Below, piece after piece: positions 17,842 to 41,708 of a DNA stretch of 64,000 nt; position 1 is the first letter of the stretch; every line of letters begins with the position of its first letter. The position numbers were made by a program, and so were the translations under genes. This stretch comes from an uncultured Microcaldota archaeon (GTDB taxonomy: Archaea; Micrarchaeota; Micrarchaeia; Norongarragalinales; CAINOH01). Below the pieces are notes generated by a model. That model was not told the origin of the DNA and searched no databases. It saw only the letters and a list, made by a program, of their open reading frames with translations. Where the stretch lies: contig CAINOH010000024.1 in NCBI GenBank assembly GCA_903851445.1, forward strand, positions 18,080 through 82,079. Reading direction: 5' to 3'.

Positions 17842-18543
17842 TTATCCGACTATAGTCCCGCAGTCCCTGCTTCCCTCGACCAGCTTCTTCAGCTGGTCAA
17901 GCTTCTTCCCATTAGCAAATACTATTTCTATCCCACTTCTTGCCGCAAGCTTGCAGGCTATTATGTCAAAGACAAACGGCGCCGTGGGTTCGCGGGTATC
18001 CAGGCGGGTTGCAAGCTCGATGAGCTGCTCATAAGACATTTTCTTGATGAGCTTGGCTTTCGGGTTCTTGGAAGGGTCGGAATCGTAAATCCCGTCAATC
18101 TTGGACAGGTTGATTAGCCGCCTTGCCTTGAGCCTCTCTGCAATTATGACAGCAGCGTGGTCGGAGGTTGCGCCCTCCACAAACCCCGCGCCAACTGGGA
18201 TTAGGTTGAGCCTGGAGGCGAGCTGAACTTCTGACAAGTCGGTGATTGACTTTGGATAGGCAACGTCCTCGCCAAGAAGCGAAATCAGGAGAGTTGCGTT
18301 GACGTGGTTTATCATCTGGCCAATCTTGTCGGCCATGACTTGCGTGCCGTTCTTCCTGGCTATGTCCTGATATTGGGCGGAAAATTTTCCTCCGCCAACA
18401 GAGATTGCGAGCTTGAAGCCCTCTGCGTGCAGCTTCTTGATTAGCGCTGCTGCTGACTTGACGTATTCGGCGTCAATGTCGCCGTTATCCTTGAACAGGA
18501 GCGAGCCGCCAAGGGAAATCACGGTAAAATCTTTCTTGTCCAA
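17842..18543 (-). CDS. pyrH: Archaeal-type UMP kinase
   Basis: SLGGSLL, VGGGKFSAQYQ, GATSDHAAVIIAERLKA and NLSKIDGIYDSDP motifs. Confidence 0.88.
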   Translation of the reverse strand: MDKKDFTVISLGGSLLFKDNGDIDAEYVKSAAALIKKLHAEGFKLAISVGGGKFSAQYQDIARKNGTQVMADKIGQMINHVNATLLISLLGEDVAYPKSITDLSEVQLASRLNLIPVGAGFVEGATSDHAAVIIAERLKARRLINLSKIDGIYDSDPSKNPKAKLIKKMSYEQLIELATRLDTREPTAPFVFDIIACKLAARSGIEIVFANGKKLDQLKKLVEGSRDCGTIVG

Positions 18544-29179: not shown

Positions 29180-29282
29180 TGGACTCAGCGGGACTTTCCT
29201 TCCCGGGCCGCTTGGCCTGGAAATTTCGAACCCGCAGCCTCTTGCATGCCATGCAAGCGATCTACCGTTGATCTATGAGCCC
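29180..29282 (-). tRNA. tRNA-Ala(GGC) with 31-nt intron in T-loop (59/60)
   Basis: Acceptor GGGCTCA/TGAGTCC with G3-U70 wobble; anticodon arm CTTGC-ATGGCAT-GCAAG; T-stem GCGGG/CCCGC only forms after intron removal. Confidence 0.9.
29194..29224 (-). other. Predicted non-canonical tRNA intron (T-loop 59/60)
   Basis: Inner helix TTTCC/GGGAA plus GGCC-AAGC-GGCC hairpin; 4-nt (TTCG/GGAA, 3 pairs) plus 3-nt bulges AA|A and AG|T. Confidence 0.85.
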
Positions 29283-29366
29283 AAAAAATAGGATTTGGGG
29301 AAGTTGTAGCGCGACTGCCTGCACAAGACGCCCTTGCGCGTGGTGGGCCGGTCGCCTGCCCGAGGC

Positions 29367-41247: not shown

Positions 41248-41263
41248 AAGGGTTTAAACCCTT
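41248..41263. promoter_or_regulatory. Perfect palindrome AAGGGTTTAAACCCTT upstream of tRNA-Gln
   Basis: 16-bp palindrome with TTTAAA core about 27-32 nt before the tRNA 5' end. Confidence 0.5.
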
Positions 41264-41304
41264 GGGGGGCATAATCTTTTCCGCAGCCCCGTAGTACAGC
41301 GGTC

Positions 41305-41332
41305 AGCCTGCTGCAAAAGGACAGGCCCGCAA
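41305..41332 (+). other. Predicted non-canonical tRNA intron (D-loop)
   Basis: 4-bp helix GCGG/CCGC, bulges TC|A and AA|A, inner helix GCCTG/CAGGC. Confidence 0.85.
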
Positions 41333-41371
41333 AAGTATGTCGGCCTTTGGAGCCGAAGACAGCGGTTCGAA

Positions 41372-41421
41372 TTCTCCAAAGCACGATGGCCCAATCGCCG
41401 CTGAAACTTTGGGGACGCAAC
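41372..41421 (+). other. Predicted non-canonical tRNA intron (T-loop 59/60)
   Basis: Outer T-stem AGCGG/CCGCT; 4-nt TTCG/CGCA (3 pairs); bulges AA|T and AC|T; 9-bp inner helix TCTCCAAAG/CTTTGGGGA. Confidence 0.88.
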
Positions 41422-41459
41422 TCCGCTCGGGGCTATAATTTTTGAAAGGTGTTATCCAG

Positions 41460-41708
41460 ATGGGAAGAATAAAGGGGACTCAAATCAAGGTGCTTTCAAG
41501 GCACATGCTCAAGACCAACGCCGCAATGTTCTCGGCCAGCTTTGACGAGGACAAGAAAATCGTCGACAAGCTCGAGCTCGGGATGAGCAAGACCGAGAGG
41601 AACAAGCTCGCAGGCGAGATTGCGCAGGAGATTGCAAAGCTCGACCGCATCGTGAAGCAGCAGGAGGCCGAGGAGGCATCCAGGGAGGCTGCAGCGGCGC
41701 ACGCATAG
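41460..41708 (+). CDS. Ribosomal protein S17e-like
   Basis: MGRIKGTQIKVLSRHMLKTNAAMFSASFDEDKKIVDKLELGMSKTERNKLAGEIAQEI resembles archaeal eS17. Confidence 0.75.
   Translation: MGRIKGTQIKVLSRHMLKTNAAMFSASFDEDKKIVDKLELGMSKTERNKLAGEIAQEIAKLDRIVKQQEAEEASREAAAAHA

Follow-up and report, generated by a model that had tools for sequence, protein, structure and literature searches.

A putative two-intron tRNA-Gln(UUG) gene, interrupted in its D loop and T loop, in a Micrarchaeota genome

Structure of the tRNA-Gln(UUG) locus

In the 64,000-nt stretch of DNA that we analyzed (hereafter, the window), a tRNA-Gln(UUG) gene interrupted by two insertions stands upstream of an ORF that we take to encode a ribosomal protein of the eS17 (RPS17E) family (Table 1). 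Excision of both insertions leaves a 73-nt product that ARAGORN calls as tRNA-Gln(ttg) with every stem paired, the complete canonical tRNA expected where archaeal BHB introns are removed. This product matches the intact tRNA-Gln(CUG) gene of the same genome (anticodon CTG; G000:C9:194348-194420) over 73 of 73 positions with no gaps and 88% identity, and because the alignment to this paralogue is gapless, both insertions are defined without any BHB model. The limits that the original prediction had given for the gene and its introns proved exact to the base, and its acceptor stem (AGCCCCG/CGGGGCT) and anticodon loop (CTTTGGA) were confirmed when we re-read the sequence. A TTTAAA motif ~28-33 nt upstream of the tRNA is a candidate TATA box, judged by its sequence and its archaeal promoter-like position; a scan for bacterial promoters and terminators gave nothing useful. 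When we looked for further copies of either intron as a sign of transposition, the sequences retrieved from genomes yielded only chance words.

Table 1 Features of the tRNA-Gln(UUG) locus and other apparent intron-bearing tRNAs of the host genome
Feature	Position	Strand	Basis
Precursor tRNA-Gln(UUG) gene, 151 nt	window 41285..41435	+	sequence, ARAGORN on spliced form, RNA fold
Exon 1: 5' strands of acceptor and D stem, D loop through nt 20a	window 41285..41304	+	gap-free alignment with tRNA-Gln(CUG); ARAGORN
Intron 1, 28 nt, D loop 20a/20b (after nt 20 of mature RNA)	window 41305..41332	+	BHB geometry against shuffles
Exon 2: from the anticodon arm (TTG) into the T loop, through nt 59	window 41333..41371	+	ARAGORN
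Intron 2, 50 nt, T loop 59/60	window 41372..41421	+	BHB geometry against shuffles, one central mismatch
Exon 3: from nt 60 through the discriminator, A73	window 41422..41435	+	ARAGORN
TTTAAA, candidate archaeal TATA box	window 41252..41257	+	read in sequence; position
Presumed ribosomal protein eS17 (RPS17E) gene, synteny marker	window 41460..41708	+	ORF; tblastn to L092 and L073
tRNA-Ala(GGC), apparent 31-nt T-loop 59/60 intron (29194-29224)	window 29180-29282	minus	sequence
tRNA-Ala(UGC), apparent 46-nt T-loop 59/60 intron	L029 97-214 (G000:C4 near 18422-18539)	minus	T-loop pattern
tRNA-Leu(GAG), apparent ~99-nt D-loop intron and 36-nt T-loop intron	L187 69-288, G000:C9:404986-405205	+	T-loop pattern
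tRNA-Gly(CCC), 34-nt intron after nt 10 (10/11), BHB central helix 4/4	L031 66-170 (G000:C23 near 132455)	minus	T-loop pattern
tRNA-Gly(GCC), insertion in 5' half	L030 (G000:C9 near 116055)	minus	T-loop pattern

Both junctions place two 3-nt bulges around a 4-bp helix, in relaxed form in the T loop. In the D loop, the central helix of the junction, GCGG/CCGC, pairs at 4 of 4 positions between the bulges TC^A and AA^A, with a 5-bp inner helix (GCCTG/CAGGC) on one side and, on the other, an outer helix whose first position is an A-A mismatch, followed by the 4-bp D stem. At the T-loop junction, the central helix TTCG/CGCA pairs at 3 of 4 positions, with a U-C mismatch at U55, between the bulges AA^T and AC^T; the inner helix has 9 bp, and the 5-bp T stem forms the outer helix. 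We therefore regard both junctions as slightly relaxed BHB forms, given the U55-C mismatch in the T loop and the A-A mismatch in the D loop. The BHB fit that had been claimed for both junctions, down to the bulge and helix sequences, lies far beyond that of shuffled introns: the D-loop geometry (central 4/4 with a 5-bp inner helix) arose in 0 of 200,000 shuffles and the T-loop geometry (central 3/4 with a 9-bp inner helix) in 1 of 200,000. Either intron can be shifted by +1 nt with an identical product, and the bulge geometry favors the boundaries in Table 1. The minimum-energy fold predicted for a 152-nt precursor (z = -2.7; none of 200 shuffles equally stable) contains the acceptor stem, the T stem, the anticodon-arm hairpin and both intron hairpins.

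Gene copy number and splicing enzymes

Across the host genome assembly, a draft of 1.09 Mb in 25 contigs that is 81% complete, we found no second tRNA-Gln(UUG), the other tRNA-Gln detected being tRNA-Gln(CUG); an intact copy elsewhere was the finding that the original prediction had held would point to a pseudogene. Because the assembly is 81% complete, a second copy may lie in unassembled DNA. The glutamine codons of 13 nearby genes number 25 CAA against 126 CAG. Since CAA is in use and the anticodon CUG (C34) is not expected to read it, this tRNA-Gln(UUG) gene is likely to be essential, barring a further copy in the fifth of the genome that the assembly lacks.

EndA is encoded as one 388-aa ORF with two PF01974 matches. 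Its layout, alphaN-alpha-betaC within a single gene of ~390 aa, is that of the epsilon2 type, and the protein aligns collinearly with the three-unit epsilon protomer. Among solved structures, its best match is the ARMAN-2 EndA from Candidatus Micrarchaeum acidiphilum (4FZ2; E=3.8e-121); the two are collinear over residues 13-387, and the seven functional residues checked are all kept: the Y236/H251/K282 triad, the R275/W384 cation-pi pair, and the Tyr-Lys of the ARMAN-specific loop (ASL) at about Y160/K161. The roles of these residues have been described, including contact of the ARMAN-specific loop with the bulge and its requirement for activity (PMC12397907), and relaxed-BHB introns are removed efficiently only by (alpha beta)2 and epsilon2 EndAs (PMC6379350). 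The subunit type, which the original prediction had singled out as worth checking, is thus the epsilon type with ARMAN-specific loop residues, a kind that is known to cleave introns at non-canonical sites. Among named genomes, most matches to this EndA come from Candidatus Micrarchaeota MAGs, with identities of 49-71%; by the nearest named relatives of its proteins, the host belongs to Micrarchaeota, and it is the sole member of its family among the genomes searched. EndA of the same kind occurs in 57 of 60 related genomes. In members of one family (f10), a second, shorter EndA-like ORF (~175 aa) lies beside the epsilon EndA (G031:C21:29571-29939, G036:C35:13369-13755, G041:C14:16932-17186).

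The genome also encodes RtcB, the archaeal tRNA-splicing ligase. As a separate observation, this RtcB (L217 1498-4206, minus strand; G000:C14:35529-38282) has an in-frame insert of ~460 aa near profile position 50 that ends in VADGFVVSN^C, as is typical of an intein, so that the host protein of the insert is the ligase joining tRNA exons.

Introns in other tRNAs and in related genomes

Because other tRNAs of the same genome appear to carry introns too (Table 1), tRNA-Gln(UUG) is one of a set, which we sought by a T-loop pattern that tRNAs with other T-loop sequences escape. The set includes a second tRNA with apparent introns in both the D loop and the T loop, tRNA-Leu(GAG), whose T-loop junction fits the relaxed BHB only, and tRNA-Ala(GGC), which ARAGORN misread as an intact gene at 29210-29283.

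We searched 60 related genomes with the mature tRNA-Gln sequence and placed introns by similarity and BHB score. The automatic boundaries are firm at 59/60 and 37/38, and those in the D loop may be off by 1-2 positions. Introns in tRNA-Gln were found at 59/60 in at least eight relatives (G002, G006, G009, G013, G014, G024, G025 and G028), in the D-loop region from ~20a to 22 in G004, G007, G015, G018, G023, G026, G030, G031 and G036, at ~15/16 in G006, G048 and G049, and at 37/38 in several relatives. Two-intron tRNA-Gln genes occur in G002, G006, G014, G025 and G030; that of G006 likewise pairs a D-loop with a T-loop intron (15/16 with 59/60). Introns at matching positions are unrelated in sequence, and the count across relatives points to a wide spread of T-loop introns across this Micrarchaeota order. 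Two tRNA-Gln genes carry longer insertions: one of 222 nt at 59/60 (L096, G028:C40) and one of 316 nt near 46/48 that contains internal repeats and may consist of nested or stacked introns (L108, G005:C14).

The position of tRNA-Gln(UUG) upstream of eS17 recurs in two relatives from other families. The gene is intact, with no introns, in G016 (L073); in G015 (L092) a single intron, different in sequence, occupies the same 20a/20b site in the D loop; in the window the gene has both introns.

Proposed splicing route, alternatives and known systems

We propose, with a probability of about 93%, that the tRNA-Gln(UUG) gene of this genome yields one precursor with two BHB introns, at 20a/20b and 59/60, that is spliced by epsilon EndA and RtcB. 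The sequence, the junction geometry, the sole copy in the assembly, the enzyme genes and the presence or absence of each intron in relatives come directly from our analysis; from these we infer transcription, cleavage, ligation and the order of steps. The gene would be transcribed as a single precursor with both introns, and a homodimeric epsilon-type EndA would recognize each junction by its local fold and cut within the bulges, freeing both introns, after which RtcB would join the exons. In tRNA, the D and T loops dock as the elbow through G18-U55 and G19-C56. Because the introns split both loops, the elbow should not form in the precursor, and would form only after splicing; EndA would then have to act on the local junctions and not on the mature tRNA body, as archaeal EndAs have been described to do (PMC12397907).

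The unspliced gene is missed by both ARAGORN and Rfam, which, together with the missing part of the genome, leaves some room for a pseudogene, a tRNA broken by two insertions while an intact Gln(UUG) lies in unassembled DNA. We consider this very unlikely, because all stems of the spliced form are intact and both insertions lie at BHB junctions, in positions where relatives carry introns of unrelated sequence. Still less probable, to the point of being negligible, is an artefact in which the tRNA was binned from another organism or the insertions were misassembled: the assembly is a draft, but we saw no specific sign of such an error, the exons resemble the genome's own Gln(CUG), the gene order with eS17 is repeated in two relatives, and T-loop introns also appear to occur in tRNAs on other contigs of the same genome. 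Hardly any weight falls on removal of real introns by self-splicing or by a nuclease other than EndA, for although group I introns occur in Micrarchaeota rRNA genes (PMC6125680), they need a core of roughly at least 200 nt, far more than the 28 and 50 nt found here, neither intron contains an Rfam match, and EndA recognizes its substrates by BHB geometry.

The original prediction had set this gene among the multi-intron, non-canonical tRNAs with broad-specificity EndAs of Thermoproteales and some DPANN, a setting that the epsilon EndA, the Micrarchaeota placement and the introns of relatives support. Non-canonical positions in archaea include 20/21 and 59/60 (PMC4090602), and ARMAN-1 and 2 are listed as carriers of multi-intron tRNAs (PMC4033280); these positions, the occurrence of two or three introns in one tRNA and the link to ARMAN have all been published before. 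In the literature searched, to which the original 2011 ARMAN EndA paper did not belong, we found no description of this D-loop and T-loop pair in tRNA-Gln(UUG). New here are a further family with this pair, a locus that reveals the presence or absence of each intron, and the count of T-loop introns across relatives. Depending on the family, the locus beside eS17 carries none, one or two introns, which makes it a clean case for tRNA intron turnover, and the link between epsilon2 EndA and scattered tRNA introns is extended from one studied organism to further Micrarchaeota families. In these genomes, tRNAs that are probably essential escape the common tRNA finders, so claims that a tRNA is absent there call for caution.

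No relation is implied to tRNA-Ile(UAU) of Cyanidioschyzon merolae, a eukaryote (red alga) whose splicing endonuclease is of the eukaryotic kind. ARMAN-1 and 2 share with the host the phylum, the EndA type and its loop residues (PMC6379350, PMC12397907), as well as BHB and relaxed-BHB introns at several positions and more than one per tRNA (PMC4033280, PMC6379350, PMC12397907), but the host is from another family, with an EndA of ~388 aa that is 49-71% identical to named Micrarchaeota relatives. Thermoproteales such as Pyrobaculum likewise have tRNAs with as many as three introns, which sit at non-canonical positions (PMC8450103), but their EndA is of the (alpha beta)2 type with a Crenarchaea-specific loop, whereas that of the host is epsilon2 with the ARMAN-specific loop. 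On balance we lean towards the view that this Micrarchaeota order, beyond ARMAN-1 and 2, forms a large hot spot of non-canonical tRNA introns, comparable to that of Thermoproteales and under-annotated. On this view, introns, above all at 59/60 in the T loop, would be gained and lost independently at orthologous tRNA loci, and standard tools would miss the affected tRNAs.
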